Part shown: piece after piece, positions 24,654 to 41,590 of the stretch
Position numbering within the stretch: the first letter of the stretch is position 1
Layout: the number at the start of each line of letters is the position of its first letter
Made by a program: the position numbers and the translations under genes
The notes under the pieces: generated by a model
Told to the model about the DNA's origin: nothing
Seen by the model: the letters and a program-made list of their open reading frames with translations, nothing else
Databases searched by the model: none
Source: Lysobacter sp. HDW10
Lineage (GTDB): Bacteria > Pseudomonadota > Gammaproteobacteria > Xanthomonadales > Xanthomonadaceae
DNA length: 64,000 bases
Direction of reading: 5' to 3'
Assembly (NCBI RefSeq): GCF_011300685.1
Contig: NZ_CP049864.1
Location: 310,001 to 374,000 of the forward strand

Positions 24654-25217
24654 TCAAGGCTGATAAATGGGCAAGCGTTCCTGCGGGATATCTCGCAACA
24701 AAGGTGCAATCGTGTCCTTGCCCGACAGCGACGGCGCGCGCCCATCCAACGGCCAAGCGATGTTCAAGTCCGGGTCATTCCATGCGATGTTGGCATCCGC
24801 CTGCGCGTCGTATGTCTCGGTGCAGAGATAGCTGAAGATGGCGGATTTACTCAATACAACAAACCCGTGCGCAAACCCTTCTGGAATCCAAAAGTGCCTT
24901 TTGTTGTCGGCACTCAAATGCATTCCGGTCCACTGACCAAACGTGGGCGAACCTCGACGAATATCGACGGCAACATCCCACACCTCGCCTTCGATGACCG
25001 AAACAAATTTGCCTTGCGGCTTTGGCCATTGGTAGTGAAGCCCTCTCAGAACGCCTTGTGCGGAAGACGAGACATTGCCCTGCTTCCAGACCAAGTCCAA
25101 GCCAAGCGGGCGAAGCTTATCGGCATTAAATGATTCGTAGAAGTAGCCTCGATCATCACCGAATACCTTCGGCTCAAAGATCAAACACCCCGGCAATTCA
25201 GATTCGATCACGTTCAT
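24654..25217 (-). CDS. rfbC: dTDP-4-dehydrorhamnose 3,5-epimerase
   Basis: Cupin-fold epimerase that converts dTDP-4-keto-6-deoxyglucose to dTDP-4-keto-L-rhamnose. The 187-residue protein has typical motifs: [17 protein letters not shown] (15-31), VLRGLHYQ with the catalytic His near 63, and the [18 protein letters not shown] stretch near 105-125. Its start overlaps the rfbA stop (ATGA). The expected next gene, rfbD (dTDP-4-dehydrorhamnose reductase), is absent; scoA follows instead. L-rhamnose synthesis would therefore need an rfbD elsewhere. Confidence 0.95.
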
Positions 25218-26098
25218 GGCACATAGCCCCGCTTCGGCAATTGCATCAAGTATTGACCGTAACCGTTTTTGGCCAAGGGCTTCGCCAAATCCATGAGCTG
25301 GGATTCCGTAATCCAGCCGTTATTGAATGCAATCTCTTCCGGACAGCACACGCGCAAACCTTGTCGCGCTTCAATTGTCTCAATGTAGTTGGCGGCTTCC
25401 AGCAGCGACCGATGGGTGCCGGTATCCAACCACGCGTAGCCCCGCCCCAATTGCTCAAGGTGCAGCGCGTTCTCTTCGAGGTACACCTTATTCAAATCGG
25501 TAATTTCCAATTCGCCACGCGGTGAAGGCTTGAGTGCTTTGGCGAATTCCGGTGCGCGTCCGTCGTAGAAATACAAACCCGTCACGGCATAGTTGGAACG
25601 TGGCGCGGTCGGCTTTTCCTCTAGTCCGATCACTTTGCCCGCTGCATCGAATTCGGCGACACCGTAGCGCTCGGGATCTTGCACCCAATAACCGAACACG
25701 GTGGCACCTTCGGGACGCGCATCTGAGCGCTTCAACATCGCCGTCAAACCCGGACCGTGGAAAATGTTGTCGCCCAAGACCAAACAACTCGGTGCGCCCG
25801 CTAAGAACGATTCGCCTAAGACGAAGGCCTGCGCCAATCCATCGGGACTGGGTTGCGCAACATATTCAAAGCGCATGCCCCACTGGCTTCCGTCGCCCAT
25901 CAAAGTCTTAAACAAGGCTTGTTCGTGCGGCGTATTGATGATCAGCACTTCACGAATACCTGCCAGCATCAACACGCTGAGCGGGTAATAGATCATCGGC
26001 TTGTCGTATACCGGCAATAGCTGTTTGCTGATGCCTTGGGTGATCGGATAGAGGCGCGTGCCTGAGCCGCCCGCGAGAATGATGCCCTTGCGATCCAT
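25214..26098 (-). CDS. rfbA: Glucose-1-phosphate thymidylyltransferase
   Basis: Makes dTDP-glucose from glucose 1-phosphate and dTTP. From the ATG at 26098, preceded by AAGGAG, it has 294 residues. The nucleotide-binding signature GGSGTRLYP lies at about 10-18, then [16 protein letters not shown], with VLGDNIFHG near 105 and [15 protein letters not shown] near 162. A frame opening at 26146 is longer but lacks family support. It lies in rfbB-rfbA-rfbC (ten bases after rfbB, four-base overlap with rfbC). It should feed both dTDP-rhamnose and, through the WecE-like enzyme at 35844, a dTDP-amino-dideoxyhexose. Confidence 0.96.
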
Positions 26099-26108
26099 GT
26101 GCGTCTCC

Positions 26109-27161
26109 TTAGGCCTGGCCGATGCGTTCAAGACGATAGCTACCATCGAGCACGCGACTCACCCATGCTTGGTTGTCGAGATACCAATCGACCGTGGCTG
26201 CGATGCCTTGTTCGAATGTGTGCGCCGGCTCCCAGCCCAGTTCACGCTTCAGTTTTGATGCGTCAATCGCGTACCGACGATCATGACCGGGACGATCTTT
26301 CACATACGTGATTTGCGAAACGTAATTTGTACCGTCTGCTTTGGGTCGGCGTTGATCGAGTAGCGCGCAGATCACATGCACAACTTCAATGTTCTGCTTT
26401 TCGGCATTACCACCCACGTTGTAGGTTTCTCCCACTTTGCCGCCTTCCAACACACGACGAATGGCACTGCAGTGATCGCCGACGTACAACCAATCGCGAA
26501 CGTTCTTTCCATCCCCGTAAATGGGCAGTGGCGCACCGGCCAAAGCCTTGGCGATGATCAAAGGAATCAATTTCTCGGGGAACTGATACTCACCGTAATT
26601 GTTGGAGCAATTGGTGGTGAGGACGGGCAAGCCATACGTATGGTGAAAGGCACGCACCAAGTGATCGGACGCTGCCTTCGATGCCGAGTACGGTGAGTTC
26701 GGGGCATACGGCGTGGTTTCGGTAAAGAGGCCGGTATCGCCCAACGAGCCATACACCTCGTCCGTCGAAACGTGGAGGAAACGGAACGCGTCTGCTGCGG
26801 CACCTTCCAAAGTCTTCCAGTAGTCGCGCGTCGCTTCGAGGAGCCCGAGGGTGCCGACCACATTGGTTTGGATGAATTCCGCAGGGCCGTCAATCGAGCG
26901 ATCGACATGGCTCTCAGCCGCGAAGTTCACCACTGCATTCGGCGTGTGCTCGGCGAGCAGACGAGACACCAAAGCGCGATCTCCAATATCGCCTTCAACG
27001 AAGACGTGGTTCGCGTTGCCTTCCAACGAGGCCAGCGTGTCTTTGTTCCCCGCGTAGGTGAGCGCATCAAGATTGATGACTTTGACGCCCTGCCGGACAG
27101 CCTCCAAGACAAAATTGCCGCCGATGAAGCCGGCACCGCCGGTAACGAGCCAAGTTGACAT
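26109..27161 (-). CDS. rfbB: dTDP-glucose 4,6-dehydratase
   Basis: Extended SDR that converts dTDP-glucose to dTDP-4-keto-6-deoxyglucose. The 350-residue protein has the NAD motif [11 protein letters not shown] (about 7-17), [12 protein letters not shown] (about 130) with the Asp-Glu pair, and the [15 protein letters not shown] active-site Tyr-Lys near 165. It opens the minus-strand operon rfbB-rfbA-rfbC and is divergent from etfB. Its keto product is the branch point between the RfbC epimerase and the WecE-like aminotransferase in the O-antigen locus. Confidence 0.96.
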
Positions 27162-27253: not shown

Positions 27254-27279
27254 AGCGGGCTGATTTGAAAGGATTGACC

Positions 27280-28026
27280 ATGAAGATTCTTGTGGGCTAC
27301 AAGCGGGTTGTGGACGCGAACGTACGGGTGCAGGTAAAGCCCGATGGGTCTGGGGTTGTCACTGAAGGCGTGAAGCTTTCGGCGAACCCGTTTGACGATA
27401 TCGCCCTTGAGGAGGCCTTGCGCCTTCGCGACTCTGGCAAAGCCACTGAAGTGATCGTCGCCACGCTTGCACCGGCCGACGCACAACCGCATCTTCGCAA
27501 CGGGCTCGCCATGGGCGCAAACCGCGCCATCCACGTGGTGACAGACGGCCCCGTTCAAGCATTAACGGCCGCACGCGCGTTGCTCAAGCTGATTGAAAAG
27601 GAACAGCCCGACCTCGTCTTGCTGGGTAAGCAGGCCATCGATGATGACGCAAGCCAAACCGGTCAAATGCTCGCGACCTTATGGGGTCGCCCGCAAGCAA
27701 CGTTCGCCAGCAAATTGGTCGTCGACGCTGGCAAGGCCACGGTCACCCGCGAAGTGGATGCGGGGCTGGAAACCCTTGAAATCGATCTGCCGGGCGTGGT
27801 CACGACTGACCTTCGCTTGAACGAACCGCGCTTTATCAAATTGCCCGACATCATGAAGGCCAAGAGCAAACCGCTCGAAACGATTCCGTTGGCAGACCTG
27901 GGCGTCGACGCGCATGAAGGTCTGAAGACCACGCATTTTGCCGCACCTGCGCAACGTGGCCGTGGCGTCATGGTGAAAGACGCGGCTGAACTGGTCGCAA
28001 AGCTCAAAGAGAAGGGGTTGCTCTAA
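27280..28026 (+). CDS. etfB: Electron transfer flavoprotein beta subunit
   Basis: Small subunit of the soluble heterodimeric ETF, which carries electrons from acyl-CoA and other dehydrogenases to ETF-QO. The ATG at 27280 is used (248 residues), since the upstream TTG at 27265 overlaps the Shine-Dalgarno. Typical motifs are MKILVGYKRVVDANVRV, NPFDDIALEEALRLR, and the AMP-binding region GKQAIDDDASQTGQM near 115. The stop shares a base with the etfA start. etfBA forms the conserved left border of the xanthomonad LPS locus. Confidence 0.97.
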   Translation: MKILVGYKRVVDANVRVQVKPDGSGVVTEGVKLSANPFDDIALEEALRLRDSGKATEVIVATLAPADAQPHLRNGLAMGANRAIHVVTDGPVQALTAARALLKLIEKEQPDLVLLGKQAIDDDASQTGQMLATLWGRPQATFASKLVVDAGKATVTREVDAGLETLEIDLPGVVTTDLRLNEPRFIKLPDIMKAKSKPLETIPLADLGVDAHEGLKTTHFAAPAQRGRGVMVKDAAELVAKLKEKGLL

Positions 28027-28973
28027 TGTCCAAGGTGTTAATCGTTGCAGAACATCTCGATGGCAAATTGAATGCTGCTACTGCGAAATGCGTGTCTGCG
28101 GCAAAGGCACTGAACCCAGATGGCATTGATGTCGTCGTTTTGTCCGGGGATGCCTCTGGGGTTGCCGAACAAGCTGCAAAACTTGAAGGCGTGACCAAGG
28201 TGCTCGCGGTGAGCAACTCAGCAAATGCGCATGCATTGGCACAAGTACAAGCCCCGCAAATTGCGAAGCTCGCCGCTGGCTACACACATGTCTTTGGCCC
28301 GAGCACAACCTTCGGCAAAGATTTGATGCCTTGTGTGGCCGCGCTGTTAGGTGTTGGACAAGTGTCTGACCTGATGTCAGTTGAAGGCGCCAACACGTTC
28401 AAACGCCCCATCTACGCGGGCAACGCGATTGTGACGGTTGAAACGCCGACCAACGCCACGGTCGTCGCAACAGTACGCACTGCCTCTTGGCCGCAAGCCG
28501 CCAATGGCGGTAATGCCGCCGTTGAAGAAACGACTGTTGAAGCCGAATTGCCGACGCATACTCGCTTCTTACACCTAGCCGCCGCATCGAGTGATCGCCC
28601 TGACCTACAAAGTGCCCGTCGCGTTGTCTCCGGTGGACGTGGTGTCGGCAGCGCCGAGAACTTTAAGATTATTTACGACCTGGCCGACAAGCTGGGCGCA
28701 GGTGTTGGCGCATCACGCGCAGCTGTTGATGCAGGCTATGTACCGAATGACATGCAGGTAGGTCAAACGGGCAAGATCATTGCACCTGAGCTCTACATTG
28801 CGATTGGGATTTCGGGTGCGATTCAACATTTGACCGGTATTAAAGATGCGGGAACCATTGTCGCAATCAATAAAGATGCGGACGCGGCAATTTTTGAAAT
28901 TGCAGATATCGGATTGGTCGGTGACCTGTTCGCTATCTTGCCGGAGCTGGAACAAGCTTTAGGCAGCGCATGA
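28026..28973 (+). CDS. etfA: Electron transfer flavoprotein alpha subunit
   Basis: Large FAD-binding subunit of ETF, 315 residues. The N-terminal domain (about 1-185) precedes the C-terminal FAD domain with SGGRGVGSAENF, GASRAAVDAGYVPND, VGQTGKIIAPELYIA and GISGAIQHLTGI, the classic ETF-alpha signature. The ATG overlaps the etfB stop. The TGA at 28971-28973 overlaps the ATG of the following glycosyltransferase (ATGA), which fuses the housekeeping operon to the O-antigen locus. Confidence 0.97.
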   Translation: MSKVLIVAEHLDGKLNAATAKCVSAAKALNPDGIDVVVLSGDASGVAEQAAKLEGVTKVLAVSNSANAHALAQVQAPQIAKLAAGYTHVFGPSTTFGKDLMPCVAALLGVGQVSDLMSVEGANTFKRPIYAGNAIVTVETPTNATVVATVRTASWPQAANGGNAAVEETTVEAELPTHTRFLHLAAASSDRPDLQSARRVVSGGRGVGSAENFKIIYDLADKLGAGVGASRAAVDAGYVPNDMQVGQTGKIIAPELYIAIGISGAIQHLTGIKDAGTIVAINKDADAAIFEIADIGLVGDLFAILPELEQALGSA

Positions 28974-29962
28974 TTTCCAGGTCGCGATCAGAGCGCAGGG
29001 CGGTACCCGTAGAGGTTTCCGTGGTTTCACCCATTTATGGGTGCGCGGGCTGTCTGGAAGAACTGGTGCATTCGATAAAGGCGGCCCTTGGGTCGTTAGG
29101 CGTTTCGTACGAAGTCATTCTTGTGGATGACGCGAGTCCAGACGGATCGTGGTCGCGTATCGAGGAAATTACGCGAGTTGAATCGAATGTTAAAGGCATT
29201 CGACTCTCTCGCAATTTCGGACAGCATGCAGCAATTTCCGCAGGGCTTGAAGCAACTCAGGGGCGCTGGGTCGTCGTCATGGACTGTGACTTGCAAGACC
29301 CGCCCGCTTCTATCCCCGATCTCTATCGAGCCGCGATCGCGTCTGACTCAGAAGTCATATTTGCGCGCCGAATGAACCGTAAGGACTCGACGGCCAAGCG
29401 ACTCTCGTCATGGGGCTTCTTCCGCCTGCTCACTTGGTTAACGGGCATGCCGCAAGATGCGCGCGAAGCGAATTTCGGCATTTTCAAACGCAATGCAATC
29501 GATGCGGTTGTGTCGATGCCTGAGCGCGAACGCTCGTTTCCGTTATTGATCAAGTGGTCGGGTTTTCGCCGAACCTCGATTGATATTGAACACGCTCAAC
29601 GCGCTGATGGTAAGAGCAGCTACACCCTAAAGAAATTACTGAAGCTGGCCACAGGTATCGCGTTAGGCTATTCAGAGAAGCCGCTGAAGATTGTTGCGCT
29701 CTGCGGCATCTTGTGCTCAGTGGTCGCCTTGGCTTTTGTCACTTTTGCCGTTATTCGATGGTTTGAGGGCGATGTCCAGGTTGCGGGCTTCACAACGATC
29801 ATTGCTTCAATCTGGTTAATCGGTGGCCTAACTTTGTTTAGCCTTGGCGTCGTGGGTCTCTATATCGGCCAAGTATTTAGAAACGTACAGGGACGGCCCT
29901 CTTTCATCGTCGCTGAAAGCATTGCGCACAGCGACACAGACGTAGATCGTACTGATGCTTGA
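28970..29962 (+). CDS. ArnC/GtrB-like polyisoprenyl-phosphate glycosyltransferase (GT2)
   Basis: Predicted inner-membrane GT2 enzyme that transfers a sugar from a nucleotide donor to undecaprenyl phosphate, like ArnC, GtrB and DPM1. The 330-residue protein has a GT-A domain with VDDASPDGS at 52-60, LSRNFGQHAAISAG at 79-92 and the metal-binding D105-C-D107 (MDCDLQDPP). Two C-terminal transmembrane helices follow (about 238-262 and 275-300), then the family tail YIGQVFRNVQGRPSFIV. Its ATG overlaps the etfA stop by four bases and its end overlaps the GNAT gene by eight. It is the likely first step of a lipid-linked sugar decoration route using the modified amino sugar made by its neighbours. Confidence 0.88.
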   Translation: MISRSRSERRAVPVEVSVVSPIYGCAGCLEELVHSIKAALGSLGVSYEVILVDDASPDGSWSRIEEITRVESNVKGIRLSRNFGQHAAISAGLEATQGRWVVVMDCDLQDPPASIPDLYRAAIASDSEVIFARRMNRKDSTAKRLSSWGFFRLLTWLTGMPQDAREANFGIFKRNAIDAVVSMPERERSFPLLIKWSGFRRTSIDIEHAQRADGKSSYTLKKLLKLATGIALGYSEKPLKIVALCGILCSVVALAFVTFAVIRWFEGDVQVAGFTTIIASIWLIGGLTLFSLGVVGLYIGQVFRNVQGRPSFIVAESIAHSDTDVDRTDA

Positions 29963-30689
29963 AAGCACGCGCTTCCAGTCGCGCCTCACACCCTGGGACG
30001 AGCGCGTGCTGGGCGTCAAGAGCGGCGAGTTTCTATTTCTGGACACACTGGATCCCCAAAGCGCAATTTCTGAGCTGGAAGCTTGGGCCATTGCTCATAA
30101 CGTCAAGTATTTGTGTGGCAGAGTGGATTCCAACGAACGCGTTGTCCGAGAAGCACTTAGGGCACGTGGATACGAGTTTATTGAGACGTCTACGACCCTC
30201 TCGCGCGCTGGTTTCGGTGAACTACCCAAAATGCCACGCGGAATGACCGTCGATCTCAGAATGCCTGAACAACACGATATCCAATGGCTTGAAGCACTCG
30301 CACAAAACGCTTTCCATCATGGCCGACTCATTGAAGACTTGTCTGTTGCAGAGTCCGCTTCACGACAGAGAACTGCCAATTGGGTTCATGACTTGATTGA
30401 AAGAAAGCAACTCAGCGTCGCCGAGGCGCGCGGGAAAACGGTTGGTTTCCACGCAGAATCTATTCGTTCGTGCGGAAAAGTGGCGGATTTAATTTTGACG
30501 GGTGCGGATCAACGCTACGCAATGTTTGCGCTACCCATCTGGATCGCAGCGCTCCAACGACTGTCCGAAGCGGGCATTGAACGCTGCGAAACACTGATTT
30601 CATCGAGCAACGTGGGCGTTACAAACTTGTATGCTCAACTCGGTTTTAAATTTGAGAAATCCTTAGCGGGATACAGGAGATATTTATGA
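29955..30689 (+). CDS. WecD-like GNAT acyltransferase, probably N-acylating a dTDP-4-amino sugar
   Basis: A 244-residue two-part protein. The N-terminal part (about 1-100) resembles the GNAT-like half of WecD (dTDP-fucosamine acetyltransferase), with WDERVLGVKSGEFLFLD. The C-terminal GNAT domain (about 105-244) ends in SSNVGVTNLYAQLGFKFEKSLAGYRRYL split across its last 28 residues, the usual 'N..a.nLY..lGF' ending. The QxxGxG/A pyrophosphate loop is weak: the expected site reads TGADQRYAMFALP, so CoA binding may be altered. It overlaps the acyl carrier protein gene by four bases. Use of acyl-ACP instead of acetyl-CoA is therefore worth considering (inference). With the WecE-like aminotransferase at 35844, a role in acylating dTDP-Fuc4N or a similar sugar is likely. 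Confidence 0.72.
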   Translation: MLESTRFQSRLTPWDERVLGVKSGEFLFLDTLDPQSAISELEAWAIAHNVKYLCGRVDSNERVVREALRARGYEFIETSTTLSRAGFGELPKMPRGMTVDLRMPEQHDIQWLEALAQNAFHHGRLIEDLSVAESASRQRTANWVHDLIERKQLSVAEARGKTVGFHAESIRSCGKVADLILTGADQRYAMFALPIWIAALQRLSEAGIERCETLISSSNVGVTNLYAQLGFKFEKSLAGYRRYL

Positions 30690-30925
30690 GTTCGAACGAT
30701 AGAATTGTGGCCGTGTTCGCCAAAGTGCTTGGATTACCTGAAAGCGAGATCGTCGACGATTTGCGCTACTCAAGTATTCCGCAATGGGACTCCATTGCCC
30801 ACATGTCCGTGATTGCAGATCTGGAAGATGCTTACGACATCATGATCGACATGGATGACGTCGTGGACATGAATACCGTCGGGAAAGCGCGCGAAATCAT
30901 CGCGAAGTACACCCAGTCTGCGTGA
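30686..30925 (+). CDS. Dedicated acyl carrier protein
   Basis: A 79-residue ACP-fold protein. The phosphopantetheine attachment serine is Ser36 in QWDSIAHM; housekeeping ACPs have DSLD(T/M)VE at this place, so this is a specialised ACP. Acidic helix II and III features follow (DLEDAYDIMIDMDDV). It overlaps both neighbours by four bases (GNAT upstream, SDR downstream). An ACP with its own SDR and AMP-ligase, away from fatty acid synthesis genes, fits making or holding an unusual acyl group for glycan modification, as in some flagellin glycosylation islands. Which acid it carries cannot be read from the sequence. Confidence 0.9.
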   Translation: MSSNDRIVAVFAKVLGLPESEIVDDLRYSSIPQWDSIAHMSVIADLEDAYDIMIDMDDVVDMNTVGKAREIIAKYTQSA

Positions 30926-31665
30926 GCGAGATCATGCGCGTTGTCATCGTAACTGGCGCAAGTCGCGGCATTGGAAAATCCATCGCGCTGCAGCTGGCAT
31001 CGCGTGGATATCAACTTGTTCTCGTTGGACGCGAACGGGAAGCCTTGGCTTTAGTGGCGGCTGAAATCACGGAGGCATGCGATTTAACGCCCGATGTTCA
31101 CGAATTGGATTTGCAGAATGTCGAGAATATTTCGACATTGTTTTCTGATGTCCACCGACGCTATAAGCGATTGGACGGTTTAGTGAACAACGCAGGCATC
31201 ATGCATGAAGGCATGCTGGGCATGATCCGTTCAACAGATATGGATCGCGTGTACGAAATCAATGTGCGCGCACCGCTAATGGCAATGCAGTTTGCCGCTA
31301 AATTGATGTCTAGGCATGGCGGCGGAAGCATTGTAAATATTTCGTCGATCATGGGCACGAAGGGTGCGTCTGGCCTCACAGTGTATGCAGCCAGTAAGGC
31401 AGCGCTCGTCGGCGCAACACTTTCCGCTGCCAAGGAACTTGCAGTCAAGAACATTCGAGTCAATGCCATCGCGCCTGGATTCGTAGAAACGGACATGACG
31501 CGAACACTTTCACCGGAGATGCACCAGCGTCGGCTGGAACAAATTGGCATGAGGCGGCCTGCCGCTCCGGAAGAAGTCGCAGAACTTGTCTCTTTCTTAC
31601 TCTCTGATGCGTCCTCGTATGTCACTGGACAAGTCATTGGTATCGATGGGCAAATGACACTATGA
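30922..31665 (+). CDS. SDR-family oxidoreductase, FabG-like
   Basis: Short-chain dehydrogenase of 247 residues, resembling 3-oxoacyl-ACP reductase. It has the cofactor motif TGASRGIG at 11-18, NNAG near 89, Ser141/142 (NISSIM), Tyr155 and Lys159 (VYAASKAA) and the C-terminal LLSDASSYVTGQVIGIDGQM. All catalytic residues are intact. It starts at a GTG overlapping the ACP stop (GTGA); the ATG at 30934, four codons in, is an alternative. Lying directly after an ACP gene, it probably reduces a 3-oxoacyl-ACP or oxidises a hydroxyacyl group on that ACP. A 3-hydroxyacyl decoration of an amino sugar would be a simple outcome. Confidence 0.85.
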   Translation: MSEIMRVVIVTGASRGIGKSIALQLASRGYQLVLVGREREALALVAAEITEACDLTPDVHELDLQNVENISTLFSDVHRRYKRLDGLVNNAGIMHEGMLGMIRSTDMDRVYEINVRAPLMAMQFAAKLMSRHGGGSIVNISSIMGTKGASGLTVYAASKAALVGATLSAAKELAVKNIRVNAIAPGFVETDMTRTLSPEMHQRRLEQIGMRRPAAPEEVAELVSFLLSDASSYVTGQVIGIDGQMTL

Positions 31666-33083
31666 GCTTGCCGTTTTGGTCGCTGTCGAACACAGATTCA
31701 AGTGCACCGGCACTTATAGAAGATGACGTATCCATTGATTATGAGGAGCTCTCAGCACGTGTGCAAGAATGGGTTGCACGGTTAGACGCGATTAAATCCG
31801 GCAAGTCATTTGGGTTCTTGGTGTTTCCTAGTTCGACGGCAGCTATTGCGTGCTACTTGGCCTGCCTGAATTCGAAGCGCCATGCCCCTTTGCTCATACA
31901 GCCCACTTTGTCAGATGCGCTGCTGATCGACCTTATTCAGCACTTTTCGCCTGATTGGATCGTTTTACCCGAAGATAAGCGCGCTGTCATTCAAGGCTTT
32001 GGCGAGGAAATCGATGCGCGTGACGGTTTGACACTTTGGAGGCTGCAAGGAAGTGAACTAGAAGTCCATTCTGACTTGGCGCTCTTGCTCAATACATCGG
32101 GCTCTACTGGTTCATCAAAACTCGTTCGAATTTCTTATTCGGCGATCGACGCAAATGCGCGGTCGATTGCTGAGTATCTGTCCTTGCAAAGCACGGATCG
32201 CGCAATAACGACTTTACCTCTGGCCTATTCATTCGGTCTCTCCATTTTGAATTCGCATCTTTTTGTAGGAGGTGCGCTAGTCCTGACCGATAAAACTTGG
32301 CTAGACAGAACATTCTGGGTCTTGGCAAAAGAGCACCTCGTAACGTCTCTATCCGGCGTTCCCGCCTCTTTCGAGATCTTATATAGATTGGGCTTGAAGC
32401 GAATCGCGTGGCCAGCGCTTAGGATGTTGACGCAGGCAGGCGGCCGCCTACGCGAGAAGCTTGTTGTTCACTTTGCCGAAGCGGCGCGCGAAGCCAGCAT
32501 GGAATTCTTTGTGATGTATGGGCAGACAGAGGCATCCCCGCGGATTAGTTATCTGCCGCCCAATCGACTCGCTGAGAAGCCAAATTCGATTGGTATTGCG
32601 GTCCCCGGTGGCACTTTGCAAGTGGATCCCACTACGGGAGAACTGATCTATTCCGGCCCAAACGTAATGATGGGCTATGCAGAGAATCGCCAAGATCTTG
32701 CCAAAGGCGACGAAATGAGGGGCACCCTCAATACGGGTGATCTGGCGGCCATAGACGAGGATGGCTTTTTTACAATTACCGGCAGACTCAAGCGTTTCGT
32801 GAAGCTGTCCGGAAATCGATTCAATCTGGACGATATCGAGCGTCTATTATGCAATTCACTAAAGATGCAGGTTGCTTGCACGGGCGCGGACGACGCACTT
32901 CGCGTTGTCATCGTCAGTGAAGAAGAGAACGTGCCCAGTGTCGTAAAGGTATTGCAAGACGAACTTCGCATCTTTAACGGATTTGTCGAGACACGTCAGG
33001 TGAACTCATTGCCTTTGATGGCGTCTGGAAAAGTGAACTACAGTGCCCTAGATGCCTTGTTTCGAAATGAGGACTCCAAGTGA
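31662..33083 (+). CDS. AMP-dependent acid ligase (ANL superfamily)
   Basis: Predicted to activate a carboxylic acid as acyl-AMP and pass it to a thiol, most simply the adjacent ACP. The 473-residue protein has the P-loop TSGSTGSSKLVR (145-156), the aromatic YGQTEASPR motif near 286, the hinge TGDLAAIDEDGFFTITGRLKR split near 358-378, and the C-terminal lysine region LMASGKVNYSALD near 455. It is short for the superfamily; the N-terminal subdomain looks compact. ATGA overlap with the SDR gene and GTGA overlap with the LuxE-like gene. It looks closer to freestanding adenylation domains that load carrier proteins than to long-chain acyl-CoA synthetases, but the substrate is unknown. Confidence 0.82.
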   Translation: MSLPFWSLSNTDSSAPALIEDDVSIDYEELSARVQEWVARLDAIKSGKSFGFLVFPSSTAAIACYLACLNSKRHAPLLIQPTLSDALLIDLIQHFSPDWIVLPEDKRAVIQGFGEEIDARDGLTLWRLQGSELEVHSDLALLLNTSGSTGSSKLVRISYSAIDANARSIAEYLSLQSTDRAITTLPLAYSFGLSILNSHLFVGGALVLTDKTWLDRTFWVLAKEHLVTSLSGVPASFEILYRLGLKRIAWPALRMLTQAGGRLREKLVVHFAEAAREASMEFFVMYGQTEASPRISYLPPNRLAEKPNSIGIAVPGGTLQVDPTTGELIYSGPNVMMGYAENRQDLAKGDEMRGTLNTGDLAAIDEDGFFTITGRLKRFVKLSGNRFNLDDIERLLCNSLKMQVACTGADDALRVVIVSEEENVPSVVKVLQDELRIFNGFVETRQVNSLPLMASGKVNYSALDALFRNEDSK

Positions 33084-34156
33084 GCGCAACTAAGCAAGGT
33101 GTGTTCGACGAACCGCGCACAACTAAACAGAATAGGCTAAATGTGACGCTGCTTGAGCTGACGCGCCACCATGCCGATAACTGCTCGGAATATGGCCGGA
33201 TACTCAACTCGCTTTGGCCGCATTGGGCAAAGAGCACGTGTGTTGAAGATTTACCTTGGATTCCGGTTCGACTCTTCAAGCAACTTTCTTTGATGAGCGT
33301 TCAGCCGACCGAGATTGTTAAAACACTAAGATCAAGTGGAACGACGGGTCAAGCGGTATCGCGCATTTTTTTAGATGCTGAAACGGCGCGCGCTCAAACC
33401 GTGGCGTTGTCAAAGATTTTTGGTGAGTTTGTTGGCAACAAACGAATGCCAATGCTCATTTTAGACAACGATGGATTCTTGAATGATCGAACCAAGTTCA
33501 ATGCGCGCGCCGCTGCAATACTGGGATTCTCTATCTTTGGGCGTGATGCAAAATATGCGCTTGATGAAAACTTGCAGCCGCGTTGGGACGAGATCAACGA
33601 ATGGCTAAACAAGTACAAGGACACGCCCATCTTCGTATTTGGTTTTACGTTCATCGTTTGGAAGCACTTTATCCAAGCACTTAGTGCAAAGGGCCTTCAA
33701 CTGAATCTGGCAAAAGACAGCGTACTTCTGCATGGAGGTGGTTGGAAGCGAATGATTGAAGAAAGTGTAAACAACGCGGAGTTCAAGCGGATGATCGCGG
33801 CGACAACGGGTATTGAGCGCGTTCACAACTACTACGGCATGGTCGAACAAGTCGGCTCGATCTTTTTCGAATGCAGCTGTGGCTTTCTGCACGCACCCAG
33901 CTACGCAGACGTGGTCATTCGTGATGAGCTAACTTTAGGCGCACTACCCATAGGTGCGCAAGGCGTCATTCAAGTAGTGAGCACGTTGCCTAGAAGTTAT
34001 CCTGGCCACAGTCTACTCACAGAGGATGTAGGCACCTTGTTGGGTGAGGATGACTGCAATTGCGGTCGCAAGGGGAAATATTTCGAAGTGCGCGGCCGCC
34101 TCAAAAATGTAGAGGTGAGAGGCTGCAGTGATACTCGACCGATGGTGACGACGTGA
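33080..34156 (+). CDS. LuxE-like acyl-protein synthetase
   Basis: Member of the LuxE acyl-protein synthetase family. In luminous bacteria LuxE activates a fatty acid with ATP and hands the acyl group to LuxC. The 358-residue protein has SSGTTGQ at 85-91, HGGGWK at 218-223, NYYGMVEQVGSIFFEC at 250-265, SYPGHSLLTEDVGTL near 306-320 and the Cys/Gly-rich end CNCGRKGKYFEVRGRLKN with RGCSDT. These are the motifs of the family over its full length, so it looks functional. It is flanked by the AMP ligase (GTGA overlap) and the LuxC-like gene (GTGA overlap). No luciferase or LuxD thioesterase is present, so light emission is not suggested. Its acyl donor may be a free acid or one borne on the ACP. Confidence 0.88.
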   Translation: MSATKQGVFDEPRTTKQNRLNVTLLELTRHHADNCSEYGRILNSLWPHWAKSTCVEDLPWIPVRLFKQLSLMSVQPTEIVKTLRSSGTTGQAVSRIFLDAETARAQTVALSKIFGEFVGNKRMPMLILDNDGFLNDRTKFNARAAAILGFSIFGRDAKYALDENLQPRWDEINEWLNKYKDTPIFVFGFTFIVWKHFIQALSAKGLQLNLAKDSVLLHGGGWKRMIEESVNNAEFKRMIAATTGIERVHNYYGMVEQVGSIFFECSCGFLHAPSYADVVIRDELTLGALPIGAQGVIQVVSTLPRSYPGHSLLTEDVGTLLGEDDCNCGRKGKYFEVRGRLKNVEVRGCSDTRPMVTT

Positions 34157-35385
34157 GACAGGCATTTAGTGGGTTTAGCGAAGGCGAGTCTTTCGAAGAC
34201 GCACTGGGTCGTCTCAGCAAGATGCCGGCCATGCCGCCTTTTGACCCGGCACTCGTGGCGTTTGTCTCTGCTTTTTCAGATCGGGTCCGCGCTCTACCTG
34301 GCCTTCGCAGTCACCCCGAACTCGCAACCCTTGCGCATTGGTTTAGGGGTTCAGCCTTGCGAAACATGGCGCGGCTTGTTGAAGGGGATAGTCGCTACGT
34401 CACGCGCCCTAGAGGGCTGGTTTTCCATATTGCGCCATCGAACGTTGACGCCCTCTTTGCGTATGGTTGGTTGATGTCCCTTTTATGCGGCAATACCAAT
34501 ATTGCGCGACTGTCTCAGAAGTCATCAGACTCGAAGGACTGGTTGGTGGGTATTGTCCGGGACCTCACGTCTGATCCAATGCATGCAAACGTGGCCAGAC
34601 GTTCTCTATTGTTGACTTATGATCATTCGGATAGCGCCACCGCGGATATTTCAAGTGTTTGCCACGCGCGCTTAATTTGGGGAGGCGATTCAACTGTGCA
34701 ACTGTTGCGTACAGTTTCGCTCTCACCACTTGCAGTGGAAATGGCATTTCCAGACCGCTTTGGTGTGGCCGTTATCAAATCTTCGGCGTTGCTTCATTTG
34801 AGCGACGAAGATCTCTCTCAACTGGCGCAACGCTTTTGTAACGACATGTTGTGGTTTGGACAACAGGCCTGCTCGTCGCCGCGCACGGTGTATTGGGTAG
34901 GCCAGTCCTCGGAGACTCGTGCAGCAAAAGCCAGGTTTTGGTCAGCAGTGTCGGCCCGCGCGGCATTTGTTCAAGAAGATGATGCCGCCTCCAGAATGGC
35001 CCGAATTTCAGATGCGTTTCTGATCGCAGCCAAGCAAGGGAATATTTCTCTTAAAGAAGAGACATCGCTTGCCACTTACCCTCTCCATTTGGAGGCAGAA
35101 GGGCCAGATGCAAGCTCGCGCGAACTTCAATCCGGTTACGGCATGGTTCTAGAGTCATCAATCTCAGATCTTTCCACGCTCTCAGCATTTTTAGATGACC
35201 GAGACCAAACCCTCATTGAATTTGGTTTTGATGATGAAGAGATACGTGAACTCGTGGGAAGTCTCACCAACCGCGCCATAGATCGTATTGTTCCGATGGG
35301 TCGTGCGTTGGATTTCAGTTCGACATGGGATGGAATGGATCTCTTCAGTATTCTCTGTCGCCGCATCAATCTGAGGGCTTCATGA
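34153..35385 (+). CDS. LuxC-like acyl-CoA / acyl-enzyme reductase
   Basis: Aldehyde-dehydrogenase-fold reductase of the LuxC family (410 residues), which reduces an acyl thioester to an aldehyde with NADPH. Visible are VFHIAPSNVDALFAYGW (about 90-106) with the nucleotide-binding part and SLLCGNTNIARLSQKSS following, ARLIWGGDS near 172-180, and the catalytic cysteine candidate Cys240 in WFGQQACSSPRTVYW. The start GTG overlaps the LuxE-like stop. LuxC and LuxE work as a complex in bioluminescence; adjacency here implies the same partnership. In this setting the aldehyde might be part of the sugar modification or a step to an alcohol or amine. Which one is unknown. Confidence 0.86.
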   Translation: MRQAFSGFSEGESFEDALGRLSKMPAMPPFDPALVAFVSAFSDRVRALPGLRSHPELATLAHWFRGSALRNMARLVEGDSRYVTRPRGLVFHIAPSNVDALFAYGWLMSLLCGNTNIARLSQKSSDSKDWLVGIVRDLTSDPMHANVARRSLLLTYDHSDSATADISSVCHARLIWGGDSTVQLLRTVSLSPLAVEMAFPDRFGVAVIKSSALLHLSDEDLSQLAQRFCNDMLWFGQQACSSPRTVYWVGQSSETRAAKARFWSAVSARAAFVQEDDAASRMARISDAFLIAAKQGNISLKEETSLATYPLHLEAEGPDASSRELQSGYGMVLESSISDLSTLSAFLDDRDQTLIEFGFDDEEIRELVGSLTNRAIDRIVPMGRALDFSSTWDGMDLFSILCRRINLRAS

Positions 35386-35753
35386 ATCTTTCCTATTTCT
35401 ACTTAGCGGGCACGATCGGCTTTACCGTGCTTGGCCAAATGATCCTAAAGTGGCAAGTGAGTGAAAATGCTCATCTGCTCGTTAAGCCCTTTTCAATACG
35501 TGCACTCGCCGGCTTTATTTTGTCGCCGTGGGTGATGTTCGCATTTGCGTCGGCTTTTGCAGCCTCTTTGTGCTGGATGATGGCCATTAGCCGGATGCCA
35601 ATCAGTAAGGCATATCCATTTATGGCCATTAACTTTCCGTTGGTTGCCGTTGCCGCCGTACTCTTTTTTAAAGAACAGATGGATTTCGCTCGTGTCGCGG
35701 GAACGGTCTTGATCATGATCGGGGTGCTGGTCCTCTCACGCTCTACCGTTTAA
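35382..35753 (+). CDS. ArnE-like small membrane flippase subunit (EamA/SMR fold)
   Basis: A 123-residue, four-helix membrane protein. The segment ISKAYPFMAINFPLVAVAA with FFKE and the end GVLVLSRSTV closely follow ArnE, half of the ArnE/ArnF flippase that moves undecaprenyl-phosphate-aminoarabinose across the inner membrane. The start is the ATG at 35382, overlapping the LuxC-like stop by four bases; a frame from 35325 lies inside that gene. With the ArnC/GtrB-like GT2 it would supply a lipid-linked sugar to the periplasm. Only one such gene is present, so it may act as a homodimer. The 90 bases after it are the first real gap in the run. Confidence 0.82.
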   Translation: MNLSYFYLAGTIGFTVLGQMILKWQVSENAHLLVKPFSIRALAGFILSPWVMFAFASAFAASLCWMMAISRMPISKAYPFMAINFPLVAVAAVLFFKEQMDFARVAGTVLIMIGVLVLSRSTV

Positions 35754-35843: not shown

Positions 35844-36971
35844 ATGATCCCATTCAACAAGCCGTACCTCACCGGGCTCGAGTTGTCTAACATTCAAGAA
35901 GCCCATGCCAACGGCCACCTATCGGGTGATGGTCCATTTACAAAAAAGTGTCATGCTTGGCTACGGGAGAATACTGGCGCGGCACGTGCGCTCCTGACGC
36001 ACAGCTGCACTGCGGCGTTAGAGATGTCGGCTATGTTGCTGAATCTTGCGCCGGGTGACGAAGTGATCATGCCGTCGTTCACTTTCGTTTCGACCGCGAA
36101 CGCTTTCGTACTGAGGGGAGCGATCCCCGTGTTCGTTGATATTCGAACCGATACCCTGAATATTGACGAACGACTGATCGAAGCTGCGATTACACCTAAG
36201 ACGAAGGCTATTTGTGTCGTTCACTATGCCGGTGTTTCTTGCGAAATGGATCAGATCATGGCCATTGCACGCCGCCATGGCTTGGCCATTGTTGAGGATG
36301 CAGCACAAGGCATCATGTCCAAGTATCGAGGCAAGCCACTGGGCACGATCGGTGACCTAGGTGCACTCAGCTTCCACGAAACGAAGAACATCATTTCGGG
36401 CGAAGGGGGTGCACTGCTTTGTCGTGATGATGAATTTTCAGAGCGTGCCGAAATCTTGCGCGAAAAAGGCACGAATAGAAGCCGCTTTTTTCGTGGACAG
36501 GTCGACAAGTACACTTGGGTCGATCTTGGCTCATCATTCTTGCCAGGCGAAGTCACCGCTGCATTTCTTGCTGCGCAAATGGAACGTGCAGATGACATCA
36601 CGGCAAAGCGACTGTCAATTTGGTCGACTTACCACGACTGGGCTGCCGAACACGAAGCAGCAGGACGCGTGCGTCGCCCTATTATTCCCGAGCATTGCGA
36701 TCACAACGCGCACATGTATTACTTACTTATGCCGAGCCCCGAAGTGCGTACGCATTTCATCGAAGGCATGAAGGCAAAGGGCATAGGCTGTGTTTTCCAC
36801 TATATTCCGTTGCATTCGTCACCCGGCGGCATCCAATACGGTCGTGCGCATGGTGTACTCAATACGACGGACGATGTCAGTGATCGCCTTGTTCGGTTGC
36901 CGCTTTGGATTGGCATAGAACCATACATGGATAATATTATCCACGCCGCTGATAGCCTGCTACGCAGTTGA
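35844..36971 (+). CDS. wecE: WecE/RffA-like dTDP-4-amino-4,6-dideoxygalactose transaminase
   Basis: PLP-dependent sugar aminotransferase (DegT/DnrJ/EryC1 family). The 375-residue protein follows E. coli WecE over its whole length: MIPFNKPYLTGLEL at the start, SGDGPFTKKCHAWL, PGDEVIMPSFTFVSTANAF, VEDAAQGIMSKYRG with Asp152, SFHETKNIISGEGGA with PLP-Lys181, REKGTNRSRFFRGQVDKYTW in parts, and VFHYIPLHSSPGG. It should convert dTDP-4-keto-6-deoxyglucose, the RfbB product, to dTDP-Fuc4N. That is the natural substrate for the WecD-like GNAT at 29955. It overlaps the following membrane protein gene if that gene starts at TTG 36968. Confidence 0.93.
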   Translation: MIPFNKPYLTGLELSNIQEAHANGHLSGDGPFTKKCHAWLRENTGAARALLTHSCTAALEMSAMLLNLAPGDEVIMPSFTFVSTANAFVLRGAIPVFVDIRTDTLNIDERLIEAAITPKTKAICVVHYAGVSCEMDQIMAIARRHGLAIVEDAAQGIMSKYRGKPLGTIGDLGALSFHETKNIISGEGGALLCRDDEFSERAEILREKGTNRSRFFRGQVDKYTWVDLGSSFLPGEVTAAFLAAQMERADDITAKRLSIWSTYHDWAAEHEAAGRVRRPIIPEHCDHNAHMYYLLMPSPEVRTHFIEGMKAKGIGCVFHYIPLHSSPGGIQYGRAHGVLNTTDDVSDRLVRLPLWIGIEPYMDNIIHAADSLLRS

Positions 36972-36976
36972 CTGAA

Positions 36977-38485
36977 ATGGACACGTTTAAGAGCTTGACG
37001 CGCGAGAATCCAAACCTCTTGTCTAGATTGTTGGCTAGACCTCTCGCACTGATCCTAGTTGCATTTGCATGCGGTAATGCTTTGTACTTTAGTGCATCGG
37101 CGGCTACACCGCTAATTCAAGCTGATGCTTGGTACTTTCTTGAACATTTCATTTACAAGTACATAGATGGAACACTTGGATTTCTAGACCTTTTCATACA
37201 GCGAGGCGGTGGCGACCATGCTCAACCGCTGCAAAAGCTCGTGTTGCTCTGGCACACCCGCTACTTTGGAATGGATTTTAGGATAGAAGGCATCGTTGGC
37301 ACATTTGCGGCGATCGCATGCTTCGCTTTAGTCGCCTTCGTCCTCATGAAAAACGAGTCCTTAGATGATCGCGCGCGATTGGTGCAGGCGCTAGCGCTCG
37401 GAATGGTATTTGTCTGCGGACTTTCCTTGAACTCAATCAATATTTATACGTGGCCGTTGGTCACACTGGGCTTCATAATTCTCTTTGTTGCGCTATTGTT
37501 TGCGGTCCTCATTGCAAGTACGTCACTGGGCAAACGGCCAATTGCTTCGATGTTTCTAGCATTTTGCGTTGGCATGCTTTGTGATGAGCAGAGCGTCGTA
37601 TTCGCGTTCTCTTTGATCGTCGGATTGGCTCTATTCGGACGTGGAGATCGGCCTCAGTTTTTGAAAACTGCCGCGTCAATCTGTATGGGAATTATCATTT
37701 CACGGATGGCCCTTTGGTGGATTTCCTCCCAAGCGTCCGTGAGTTCTTCCGCCTTTGAAGTCGGCGTTGACACTTCAAAGCTACTCAGTTGGCCCGACAT
37801 CCTGAATGCAGTGATCATTCCCGCATCAGATGGAGTAGTTCATCAAGAACATTTTGCGAAGCTGGGTGCCCACGCGAGTGCCTTTAAATGGCTTGTCGCC
37901 ATTTCGGGGATAGTACTCAATAGTTGGCTAGTGTGGACGCTTTTTATATTGAGACGAAGGGGCAGCAAGGATGTTCGACTGGTCCTCGCGACGTTCCTGT
38001 TACTAACCTGTTACGTTGTAACTTTTGGCCTTGTGATCAATCGCGTCGGAACATTCGGCTGGGAATACCTGCACCAACCAAGATACGTTTTCTACTACCA
38101 GCTACCGTTCGTTTCAATGTTCATCATTCTTCATTACACCCAAGGAGAGCGAGCAAAAGAGTCCCGTTCAATTCTTGGACGAGCATTTCCAATTGCAGTC
38201 ATTTTGGGAGTCGGAGCATTACAGGTCGCGCTAAGCCGCGAGGCTTGGAAAATGCCACCTTACCTTGTCGCGTATTGGGTCGGTGCTGCATCGAAGATGG
38301 AAGAGATCCGCACCAATCCTGATGCCGATGTATCGAAGTGCCCAGACATAATTGATCCGTGCGCCTACTCGCGAGAACACAGAACTGAAACGATGGAGTA
38401 TCTTCATGATCATCGTCTTAACCTGTACTCAGAAAGCTTTCAGCGAAGGGTAGGCTTGCGGCCGATTAGTTCGCACCAACGATGA
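36977..38485 (+). CDS. Polytopic membrane protein, candidate GT-C glycosyltransferase
   Basis: I recognise no named family. From the ATG at 36977 the protein has 502 residues with about ten to twelve hydrophobic segments. The first large loop is polar and periplasmic by prediction, holding QADAWYFLEHF near 40 and RGGGDHAQPLQKLVLLWHTRYFG near 72-94 in two parts. Acidic residues after the first helix and such a loop are typical of GT-C enzymes using lipid-linked sugars, like ArnT or Gtr transferases. A TTG at 36968 overlapping the wecE stop is an alternative start. The position after a GT2, a flippase and an aminotransferase suggests it attaches the modified sugar to O-antigen in the periplasm, or serves as another O-antigen assembly protein. 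Confidence 0.6.
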   Translation: MDTFKSLTRENPNLLSRLLARPLALILVAFACGNALYFSASAATPLIQADAWYFLEHFIYKYIDGTLGFLDLFIQRGGGDHAQPLQKLVLLWHTRYFGMDFRIEGIVGTFAAIACFALVAFVLMKNESLDDRARLVQALALGMVFVCGLSLNSINIYTWPLVTLGFIILFVALLFAVLIASTSLGKRPIASMFLAFCVGMLCDEQSVVFAFSLIVGLALFGRGDRPQFLKTAASICMGIIISRMALWWISSQASVSSSAFEVGVDTSKLLSWPDILNAVIIPASDGVVHQEHFAKLGAHASAFKWLVAISGIVLNSWLVWTLFILRRRGSKDVRLVLATFLLLTCYVVTFGLVINRVGTFGWEYLHQPRYVFYYQLPFVSMFIILHYTQGERAKESRSILGRAFPIAVILGVGALQVALSREAWKMPPYLVAYWVGAASKMEEIRTNPDADVSKCPDIIDPCAYSREHRTETMEYLHDHRLNLYSESFQRRVGLRPISSHQR

Positions 38486-39742: not shown

Positions 39743-40318
39743 TTAGAGATTCGATAGAATATCTAGGCGGCTAATGTCGTCGCTCGAAGTAAAGAGTGCC
39801 GCGTTATAGATTCCGGCTGCATGCGCTGCTTCAATATCGCTTTGCTTGTCACCGATAAGCACACTTGTTTCGGCGTTTATGTTCCACCTGCTCATTGCTT
39901 GCCTGAGCATCCCTGGTTGAGGCTTCCTACAATCGCATTCAACACGATACCGCCCTTCGCCAGCAGTTGGGTGATGCGGGCACCAGAACGTCGCTGCCAG
40001 TGGCGCATTTCGCTCGGTGAATACCTTGTGCACCCATCGTGTGTACTTGATAAAATCCAGCTCACTGTAATACCCTCGCCCAATACCAGCTTGATTCGTC
40101 ACGACAACTGGCAGGAAACCCTTCTCGTGCGCTCTGGCTACAAATTCGAATATTCCATCGACCCAATCGGTTTGTTTGGGTGAGTGAACGTAGCCATGAT
40201 TTACGTTGATGACACCGTCTCTATCTAAAAAAAGCGCGCGTCTCGGCGCCGAGAGCTGCGCCAACTGTTCCGAGAGCGTAGGGTCAAGAAATGGCTGCCG
40301 GATCTCGATCTGGCTCAT
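39743..40318 (-). CDS. gmhB: D-glycero-D-manno-heptose 1,7-bisphosphate phosphatase (GmhB type)
   Basis: HAD-superfamily phosphatase of 191 residues that removes the C7 phosphate from heptose 1,7-bisphosphate. HAD motif I is FLDRDGVINVN with Asp32 and Asp34. The GmhB zinc-loop cysteine pattern appears in FWCPHHPTAGEGRYRVECDCRKPQPGM read in parts (Cys and His ligands near 115-135). The C-terminal IGDKQSDIEAAHAAG holds the Mg-binding Asp. It overlaps hddC by four bases and stands third in the reaction order after GmhA and HddA. The alpha anomer is expected because the guanylyltransferase next to it is HddC type. Confidence 0.9.
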   Translation of the reverse strand: MSQIEIRQPFLDPTLSEQLAQLSAPRRALFLDRDGVINVNHGYVHSPKQTDWVDGIFEFVARAHEKGFLPVVVTNQAGIGRGYYSELDFIKYTRWVHKVFTERNAPLAATFWCPHHPTAGEGRYRVECDCRKPQPGMLRQAMSRWNINAETSVLIGDKQSDIEAAHAAGIYNAALFTSSDDISRLDILSNL

Positions 40319-41016: not shown

Positions 41017-41590
41017 GTGGGTGCATCTCAGCTTCAATTAAGGCGCAAAGCATATGACCGAGAAACTCGTGACCTTCCTGAATTCGTGGAGTTTCATTTG
41101 AAGGCACTTGGAAGCATAAGTCTGACTGTTGTGCCAATGTCCCACCATGGCTACCCGTGAACCCAATCGTCAAAATGCCGCGCGCCTTTGCCGCTTCCAC
41201 TGCACGAATGATATTCGGTGAATTCCCTGAAGTTGAAATCGCCACAAACACGTCACCGGCTCGTCCGATTGCTTCAATTTGACGCGCGAATACATAGTCG
41301 TATCCGTAATCGTTTCCTATTGCTGTCAAAATGCTTGAATCAGTGGTGAGTGCAACGGATGCGAGCCCAGGTCTGTCGTAGTAAAAGCGGCTAACGAGCT
41401 CACCCGACCAATGTTGGGCATCGGCCGCGCTACCGCCATTGCCTGCAAACATGATCTTTCCACCGGCACGCAAGGCATTCGTACTTAGGTTAGTTGCCTC
41501 AATGAGCTGATCCGAGAATTTTTGTGATTCTGCCATCCGCTTAAAGTTCTCTTGAACTTTGTCGAACTCAGATTTGATAAATACTTTCAT
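41003..41590 (-). CDS. gmhA: Sedoheptulose-7-phosphate isomerase (GmhA)
   Basis: SIS-domain isomerase that converts sedoheptulose 7-phosphate to D-glycero-D-manno-heptose 7-phosphate, the entry to heptose synthesis. With the ATG at 41590, overlapping the hddA stop by four bases, it has 195 residues. Motifs include MFAGNGGSAADAQHWSGEL near 47-65, TTDSSILTAIGNDYGYDYVF and ISTSGNSPNIIRAVEAA, with EGHEFLGHMLCALIE near the end carrying the catalytic His. It may be a second copy besides one for LPS core heptose elsewhere in the genome. Confidence 0.93.
   Translation of the reverse strand: MKVFIKSEFDKVQENFKRMAESQKFSDQLIEATNLSTNALRAGGKIMFAGNGGSAADAQHWSGELVSRFYYDRPGLASVALTTDSSILTAIGNDYGYDYVFARQIEAIGRAGDVFVAISTSGNSPNIIRAVEAAKARGILTIGFTGSHGGTLAQQSDLCFQVPSNETPRIQEGHEFLGHMLCALIEAEMHPREAS

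Follow-up and report, generated by a model that had tools for sequence, protein, structure and literature searches.

A LuxE-LuxC gene set in a Lysobacter lipopolysaccharide locus as a candidate hydroxyacid module for an N-acylated amino sugar

Why would an O-antigen locus carry relatives of the enzymes that make fatty aldehyde for bacterial light? The question is raised by a stretch of 64,000 nucleotides from Lysobacter sp. HDW10 (contig NZ_CP049864.1, positions 310,001 to 374,000; the whole stretch is called the window below), in which five consecutive genes encode an acyl carrier protein (ACP), a FabG-like short-chain dehydrogenase/reductase (SDR), an AMP-dependent ligase, a LuxE-type acyl-protein synthetase and a LuxC-type reductase (Table 1). 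An earlier model reading of the letters alone, here called the sequence-only reading, had pointed to this set. On balance, and with moderate confidence, we favour the explanation that the five genes serve as a module for building a hydroxyacid, within a nine- or ten-gene cassette for an N-acylated 4-amino-4-deoxyfucose (Fuc4N) side sugar of lipopolysaccharide (LPS).

Is the gene set real? The coordinates of the open reading frames (ORFs) and the Pfam matches agree with the sequence-only reading that the five genes stand in a row with overlaps of four bases. All five Pfam matches pass the curated cut-offs, that of LuxC spanning residues 84-249 of 410 only, and residues 17-350 of the 358 in LuxE can be aligned to the LuxE chain in the solved structure 7xc6 (8.5e-14). 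The same reading had listed the catalytic residues as intact and had named loss of LuxC or LuxE residues in alignment as evidence against itself. With the window counted, they are kept in every aligned homologue: Ser36 of the ACP in 72 of 72, Ser142, Tyr155 and Lys159 of the SDR in 62 of 62, the SSGT motif and Cys349 of LuxE each in 83 of 83, and Cys240 of LuxC in 81 of 81. We take the two cysteines, Cys349 and Cys240, to be the catalytic ones. The five-gene set is real and, as far as sequence can tell, looks functional.

Do LuxC and LuxE then yield fatty aldehyde for luminescence, or are they a remnant of such a system? Family membership alone speaks for this, and the idea is refuted by gene content; we give it practically no credence. 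As the sequence-only reading had noted, luxA, luxB and luxD are absent from the window (E 1e-3), and they are also absent from 82 related loci described below. The sole LuxA-like stretch in the genome has 31% identity over 91 aa and lies 0.74 Mb off. The NCBIfam models of the luminous proteins score far under their cut-offs, with 27.7 against 750 bits for LuxC and 63.2 against 550 for LuxE. The tree comparison with luminous homologues that had been proposed points the same way. The trees hold rows from 33 of the 82 loci, to which 13 others were added for LuxE and 12 for LuxC, and places where long branches meet were flagged. In the LuxE tree the window groups with five Xanthomonadaceae rows (99/89), outside the luminous clade (100/99), and the deep split from that clade is supported by 88/79 only. 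In the LuxC tree a single clade (100/99) unites 37 five-gene rows, to the exclusion of the luminous, the RfbN-like and other LuxC. The RfbN-like row falls with the five-gene clade in the LuxE tree (94/93) and with luminous LuxC in the LuxC tree (82/40); its placement is unsure because of its long branch and these differing positions. Thus the window shares with the luxCDABE fatty-acid reductase the LuxC and LuxE families and the catalytic cysteines, but it does so at 22-25% identity, with its own ligase and ACP and without luxA, luxB and luxD.

Does the gene set recur in other genomes? When genome contigs were scanned with an alignment of LuxE, at least 577 relatives were confirmed. The best 80, together with L022 and L023 (loci are cited by L numbers), make up the 82 loci, which were picked by LuxE alone and then searched with marker proteins. 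L021 duplicates L028 and was not used, nor were matches covering less than half a query, except for the ACP. The ligase is present in 80 loci, LuxC in 80, the ACP in 72 and the SDR in 61, and all five genes lie on the plus strand in 58 of the 82. LuxC directly follows LuxE in 70 of 80 loci, and the ligase directly precedes LuxE in 57 of 80. In 22 of 82 loci the genes keep the strict order ACP-SDR-ligase-LuxE-LuxC, no gap being longer than 350 bp. The rows of the trees span Pseudomonadota, Bacillota, Bacteroidota, Spirochaetota and Thermodesulfobacteriota. A chance neighbourhood is rejected by the presence of ligase and LuxC, each in 80 of 82 loci, at places chosen by LuxE alone. The five genes do recur together in other genomes, as the earlier reading had asked of them.

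As a control, loci with other kinds of LuxE (three luminous, six others) were inspected, and an ACP or ligase was found in none of the nine. One of them, L025, has a ligase-like ORF of 23% identity on the opposite strand, and in L024, not counted among the nine, a LuxE of 26% and a ligase-like ORF of 23% identity share a strand; we treat this control as suggestive only. L025, L152 and L153 carry a different LuxE paired with a LuxC-type protein of 482-493 aa, followed in L025 and L152 by ABC-transporter-like and SDR genes, and they are another non-luminous LuxCE system. Within the window's class, 4 of 369 genomes, the own genome included, have a LuxE match at E < 1e-90; the distribution of the module is therefore patchy. 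Sixteen congeneric genomes (four of them at most 90% complete) have no LuxC match, and none of the five genes stands beside etfA in seven congeners, for which about 20 kb each was read with an ORF picking that can miss genes.

What does the module serve? In all five Xanthomonadaceae loci (L026-L030) it belongs to a cassette of nine genes: ArnC-like GT2, WecD-like protein, ACP, SDR, ligase, LuxE, LuxC, ArnF-like protein and WecE. The same nine genes occur in another order in Pelomonas (L034). Homologues of the 505-aa polytopic protein that follows WecE in the window are seen in three of the five. Across the sample, WecE at 49.5% identity or more is found in 13 of 17 loci with a WecD-like protein against 2 of 65 others, a bound chosen after 50% was found to exclude L042. 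An ArnC-like GT2 is found in 16 of those 17 loci against 3 of the 65; the Fisher tests on these associations ignore relatedness. In the window WecE scores above its curated cut-off, and rmlA and rmlB are the source of the dTDP-4-keto-6-deoxyglucose that it requires.

The 244-aa protein upstream of the ACP was described earlier as an acyltransferase and the protein downstream of LuxC as a flippase. The former belongs to a WecD-like family, and the latter is ArnF-like, at a score below the cut-off. Among 18 aligned relatives of the 244-aa protein, at E up to 0.1, 15 match NF008212 (WecD), 14 wecD_rffC and six PseH. The family profile matches the TDP-fucosamine acetyltransferase 2fs5 (5.4e-08) over positions 50-242 of 245. 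This structure ranks third; two other GNAT proteins rank higher but match in the C-terminal part only. Because WecE shares the cassette with the WecD-like protein, dTDP-Fuc4N is the probable acceptor, as judged by kinship. Together, the co-occurrence across phyla, the adjoining WecD-like and WecE genes and the lack of luciferase genes uphold the earlier claim of a unit making an ACP-bound acyl group for an amino sugar.

How would such a module work? LuxE would adenylate a small dicarboxylic acid, most likely malate, at one of its carboxyls and carry it on Cys349. LuxC would reduce it through Cys240 to the semialdehyde, and the SDR would turn this aldehyde into an alcohol, most likely giving 2,4-dihydroxybutanoate. 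The AMP ligase would then put the other carboxyl onto the ACP, so that the group delivered is predicted to be 2,4-dihydroxybutanoyl. Two activating enzymes would be needed because the acid has two carboxyls, one of which is reduced and the other becomes the amide. By its kinship, the WecD-like enzyme would next acylate the dTDP-Fuc4N provided by RmlA, RmlB and WecE. The ArnC-like GT2 may move the sugar onto undecaprenyl phosphate, the small multidrug resistance (SMR) protein may flip the lipid-linked sugar, and the 505-aa membrane protein may attach it to the heptose-containing O-antigen exported by Wzm/Wzt. Alternatively, the first three steps might proceed with the acid already on the ACP.

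Could the pathway instead end at the aldehyde, which would be linked to the glycan by, for example, reductive amination or an acetal? LuxC chemistry stops at an aldehyde, and to that extent the idea fits. It would leave the SDR, the ligase, the ACP and the WecD-like acyltransferase without a task, and the SDR is present in 27 of the 29 full-length loci (longer than 20 kb) without a carboligase; we consider it very improbable. The choice offered by the sequence-only reading, either an acyl transfer or an aldehyde, is probably false, the aldehyde being more likely an intermediate toward the acyl group.

Another explanation is a fatty or beta-hydroxyacyl pathway, in which the FabG-like SDR would produce a 3-hydroxyacyl-ACP for the sugar amine and LuxE and LuxC would have a side or salvage role. 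The SDR is similar to 3-oxoacyl-ACP reductases (229.8 bits, cut-off 297.75), FabZ-like proteins occur in 19 of 82 loci and a FabH-type ketosynthase in five, and the available text of two flagellin papers suggests fatty-acid synthesis or a liposugar for related sets (PMC7874193, PMC4875605; statements from published work, here and below, hold for the parts of each paper that were available). Yet neither the 64 kb of the window nor any of the 22 strict-order loci holds a ketosynthase, no FabF-type match was found in the 82, and the retention of LuxC and LuxE with invariant cysteines would be left unexplained. This pathway is therefore unlikely for the window. Since a FabH-type ketosynthase is present in five loci, some relatives may build their acyl groups differently. 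Of the earlier proposal that an acyl chain is built on the ACP, the ACP-bound acyl group for an amino sugar stands, while the building of a fatty chain is unlikely with no ketosynthase in the window.

There is a further question of concern, which acid is used? A gene of the lactate/malate dehydrogenase family adjoins LuxC in 8 of 82 loci (L042, L043, L044, L065, L066, L097, L100 and L104), directly after it in six and one gene further in two. Lactate dehydrogenases have Gln and malate dehydrogenases Arg at the specificity position, and all eight have Arg before a KPGE-like motif. These neighbours raise the odds for malate slightly. The flagellin of A. piscicola AH-3 carries a 376.14 Da pseudaminic derivative together with a 102 Da moiety (PMC7874193). 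The calculated mass of C4H6O3, as in dihydroxybutanoyl, is 102.032 Da, and pseudaminate with one acetyl and C4H6O3 gives 376.148. In the fgi-1 mutant of AH-3 the 102 Da unit is lost and the 376 Da unit is retained (PMC7874193), which neither proves nor contradicts the dihydroxybutanoyl assignment.

It is also possible, though we hold it for rather improbable, that the same module logic works on another acid, such as succinate, giving 4-hydroxybutanoyl, or yields another short hydroxyacid. Nothing in the window fixes the diacid, and the pocket of LuxE is not visible from sequence. Against another acid, the sole member found of such a pathway type with a known product, that of Vibrio cholerae O1, gives (S)-2,4-dihydroxybutyryl on perosamine (PMC6562859, PMC12208996). 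The malate-type residue in the dehydrogenases beside LuxC in eight loci also speaks against it, and the calculated masses for 4-hydroxybutanoyl (86.04 and 360.15) miss the Aeromonas values.

Several observations weigh against the proposed dihydroxybutanoyl pathway and should be noticed together. The SDR is not seen in 21 of the 82 loci, some of them on short contigs. The window has no lactate/malate-family dehydrogenase, and those beside LuxC elsewhere match L-lactate dehydrogenase best (4 of 8 above the cut-off), with the malate models below their cut-off in all eight. C4H6O3 equally fits O-methylglyceryl. The 244-aa protein of the window itself matches none of NF008212, wecD_rffC and PseH, and the roles of the GT2, the SMR protein and the 505-aa protein rest on family matches below cut-off or on none. 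Finally, the RfbN-like LuxC joins the luminous LuxC, at an unsure position, instead of the window's clade. For the missing SDR, an iron-containing alcohol dehydrogenase (Fe-ADH) was considered as a general stand-in and rejected: it fits L145 and is found in one of the 82 loci (L074, without SDR), so that the other 20 SDR-less loci, some on short contigs, are left unexplained.

Is the aldehyde put to other uses among the relatives? A split transketolase, with both halves present, occurs in 26 of 82 loci; its N half lies at 2.4-9.3 kb (median 3.5 kb) from LuxE. Ten of the 82 have acetolactate-synthase-like enzymes, 1.7-6.4 kb away, and one locus has both kinds. Among loci longer than 20 kb, the SDR accompanies the transketolase in 19 of 19 and the acetolactate-synthase type in 2 of 6. 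The related spirochaete loci L169 (7313-15296) and L170 (7535-12918) both hold ACP, ligase, thioesterase, LuxE, LuxC and SDR, and L169 has in addition an inserted split transketolase pair and a second SDR. The nearby carboligases and this insertion suggest that the aldehyde made by LuxC also enters reactions in which carbon-carbon bonds are formed. A 773-aa protein with both LuxE and LuxC (L151:16597-18918) adjoins a second, separate LuxE-LuxC pair and a split transketolase. In eight loci (L032, L038, L040, L043, L054, L080, L086 and L100) the LuxCE module is accompanied by an acetolactate-synthase-like enzyme and a NeuB-family protein; these NeuB-family proteins have at least 45% identity to that of L040, and the loci, mostly without SDR, represent a different chemistry.

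A wider scenario we put forward tentatively, being somewhat more doubtful than convinced: the LuxE-LuxC clade would be a widespread aldehyde hub, in which malate semialdehyde is either reduced by an SDR to 2,4-dihydroxybutanoate or first extended by a thiamine diphosphate-dependent carboligase, of the split transketolase or acetolactate-synthase-like type. The resulting polyhydroxyacyl-ACPs would serve O-antigens and flagellins, whose 4-amino sugars and nonulosonic acids receive the acyl groups. On AH-3 flagellin, dihydroxybutanoyl and its pseudaminic acid amide would then account for the units of 102 and 376 Da. The flagellin glycan of Treponema denticola reportedly has a mass of 450.2 Da; pseudaminate with one acetyl and 2-methoxy-trihydroxyhexanoyl is calculated as 450.185, in agreement with that value, and the longer acyl of T. 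denticola would, under the hub scenario, be malate semialdehyde plus a two-carbon ketol unit. The transketolase-bearing relatives would in that case point to a little-noticed polyhydroxyacyl route.

The surroundings of the cassette are listed in Table 1. Upstream on the plus strand lie the beta and alpha genes of electron transfer flavoprotein (ETF). On the minus strand, one flank holds rmlB, rmlA, rmlC and a 3-oxoacid CoA-transferase pair, and the other the heptose genes, Wzt and Wzm, up to cystathionine gamma-synthase (metB, 536 bits against a cut-off of 513) and a gene like cystathionine beta-synthase (CBS). The locus is the metB-etfA LPS locus of xanthomonads, which is highly variable and has rml and CoA-transferase genes nearby (PMC2238763). 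The heptose/Wzt/Wzm O-antigen is probably the polymer that the side sugar decorates. The start of the putative flippase is better placed at 35382, which gives a four-base overlap with LuxC as well. Hydropathy gives two membrane segments at the C-terminus of the GT2. The 505-aa protein, with no match in Pfam, NCBIfam or solved structures, is a candidate new GT-C-like family. Adjoining the heptose/Wzt genes, a 1058-aa protein (42612-45788) combines methyltransferase, GT2 and GT1-type domains and is possibly a chain-building or capping enzyme. No Rfam family reaches its gathering score in the window.

Table 1. Genes of the proposed cassette and its surroundings, with positions in the window
Feature	Position	Strand	Details
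ArnC/PgfS-like GT2	28970-29962	+	below model cut-offs; proposed undecaprenyl-phosphate Fuc4NAcyl synthase
WecD-like N-acyltransferase (GNAT)	29955-30689	+	244 aa; proposed dTDP-Fuc4N acyltransferase; without own Pfam match
ACP	30686-30925	+	79 aa; PP-binding 31.1 bits; Ser36
FabG-like SDR	30922-31665	+	247 aa; adh_short_C2 202.5 bits; proposed aldehyde-to-alcohol step
AMP-dependent ligase	31662-33083	+	473 aa; AMP-binding 120 bits; proposed hydroxyacid loading on ACP
LuxE-type acyl-protein synthetase	33080-34156	+	358 aa; LuxE 181.7 bits; acylation Cys349
LuxC-type reductase, divergent subfamily	34153-35385	+	410 aa; LuxC 79.7 bits; Cys240
ArnF-like SMR protein, proposed flippase	35382-35753	+	123 aa; 50.8 bits against cut-off 99
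WecE, dTDP-Fuc4N transaminase	35844-36971	+	TIGR02379 584.4 bits against cut-off 434.85
Polytopic protein, proposed periplasmic GT-C-like transferase	36968-38485	+	505 aa; about 8 membrane segments (hydropathy)
rmlA and rmlB	25214-27161	-	TIGR01207 492 bits, TIGR01181 506 bits, both above cut-offs
ETF beta and alpha	27265-28973	+	
D,D-heptose genes, methyltransferase/GT protein, Wzt/Wzm	39743-47948	-	HddA, HddC best matches below cut-off; Wzt_C above

If the hydroxyacid module is true, gene sets so far labelled as fatty-acid synthesis or liposugar acquire a chemical meaning, and the occurrence of relatives of light-pathway enzymes in many non-luminous bacteria is accounted for. For several phyla the module also predicts substituents of LPS and of flagellin glycans that can be measured.

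How does the window compare with known systems? Flagellin glycosylation islands also hold ACP, SDR, AMP ligase, LuxE and LuxC together. The Aeromonas Group II islands (98 strains) carry an ACP, a 3-oxoacyl-ACP reductase, an AMP synthetase, luxE and luxC in the order orf1-orf2-orf3-luxE-luxC, for which a liposugar was suggested (PMC7874193). In the islands of Enterobacteriaceae, ACP is counted in 72 strains, LuxE in 73, LuxC in 80 and FabG in 71 (PMC4875605). The five functions are thus already on record together; of such islands the sequence-only reading had mentioned the ACP and ligase genes. The islands differ in having pseudaminic acid genes and flagellin and in their fatty-acid or liposugar interpretation, the Aeromonas ones being likened by description only, whereas the window has WecE, the WecD-like protein and export and heptose genes in a metB-etfA LPS locus, and no pseudaminic or flagellin setting.

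A second system is that of V. cholerae O1. In locus L145 an ACP, an AMP ligase, an Fe-ADH and a fused LuxE-LuxC protein (595 and 429 bits) are encoded one after another, presumably the RfbK-RfbL-RfbM-RfbN (WbeK-N) arrangement of V. cholerae, in which we take RfbM to be the Fe-ADH and RfbN the fusion. The RfbN-like LuxE of L145 has 36.7% identity to that of the window over 357 aa, and fusions of this type occur in 4 of 196 genomes of the genus of the luminous genome G450, at 76-98% identity. As far as the published descriptions available go, the V. cholerae system shares with the window a carrier protein, a ligase, a LuxE domain and the N-acylation of an O-antigen amino sugar, and the window does hold ACP, ligase, LuxE and LuxC in an O-antigen locus. 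They differ in that the former has the fusion and the Fe-ADH (as seen in L145), perosamine and another LuxC clade, while the window has separate LuxE and LuxC genes, an SDR in the Fe-ADH slot and Fuc4N. The simplest common logic, by analogy, would be a diacid reduced at one end by LuxE, LuxC and a dehydrogenase and loaded at the other by ligase and ACP. RfbN, which has a LuxE domain, serves the tetronate of the O-antigen (PMC4772473, PMC12208996), and O1 antigen is lost when wbeL, the ligase gene, is deleted in frame (PMC3441752). The product of this pathway is 3-deoxy-L-glycero-tetronate, another name for 2,4-dihydroxybutanoate. Since RfbN serves an O-antigen substituent, LuxE/LuxC in O-antigen decoration is not new, and the earlier statement that such a step is undescribed has to be given up.

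In WecE and WecD (RffC) of the enterobacterial common antigen, dTDP-Fuc4N is likewise produced and then N-acylated. The donor there is acetyl-CoA, whereas in the window it is probably the ACP of the module, and the acyltransferase is far diverged. A further parallel is periplasmic glycosylation by three components (GtrABC; pentofuranose systems, PMC11127046, in its available text), with which the window would share a lipid-phosphate-sugar synthase, a flippase and a polytopic transferase, an ABC-exported O-antigen adjoining. The window differs in its proposed acylated amino sugar, its putative SMR/ArnF-like flippase and its putative 505-aa transferase without family; of the three components, the GT2 and the SMR protein score below cut-offs and the third is polytopic. 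In the available parts of the papers, no publication was found that joins the five genes to WecE and a WecD-like protein or that reads the set as a diacid-reduction module. New here is the proposed coupling of a hydroxyacid module based on LuxCE with a Fuc4N pathway of the WecE/WecD-like kind and with a system that adds a side sugar in the periplasm.

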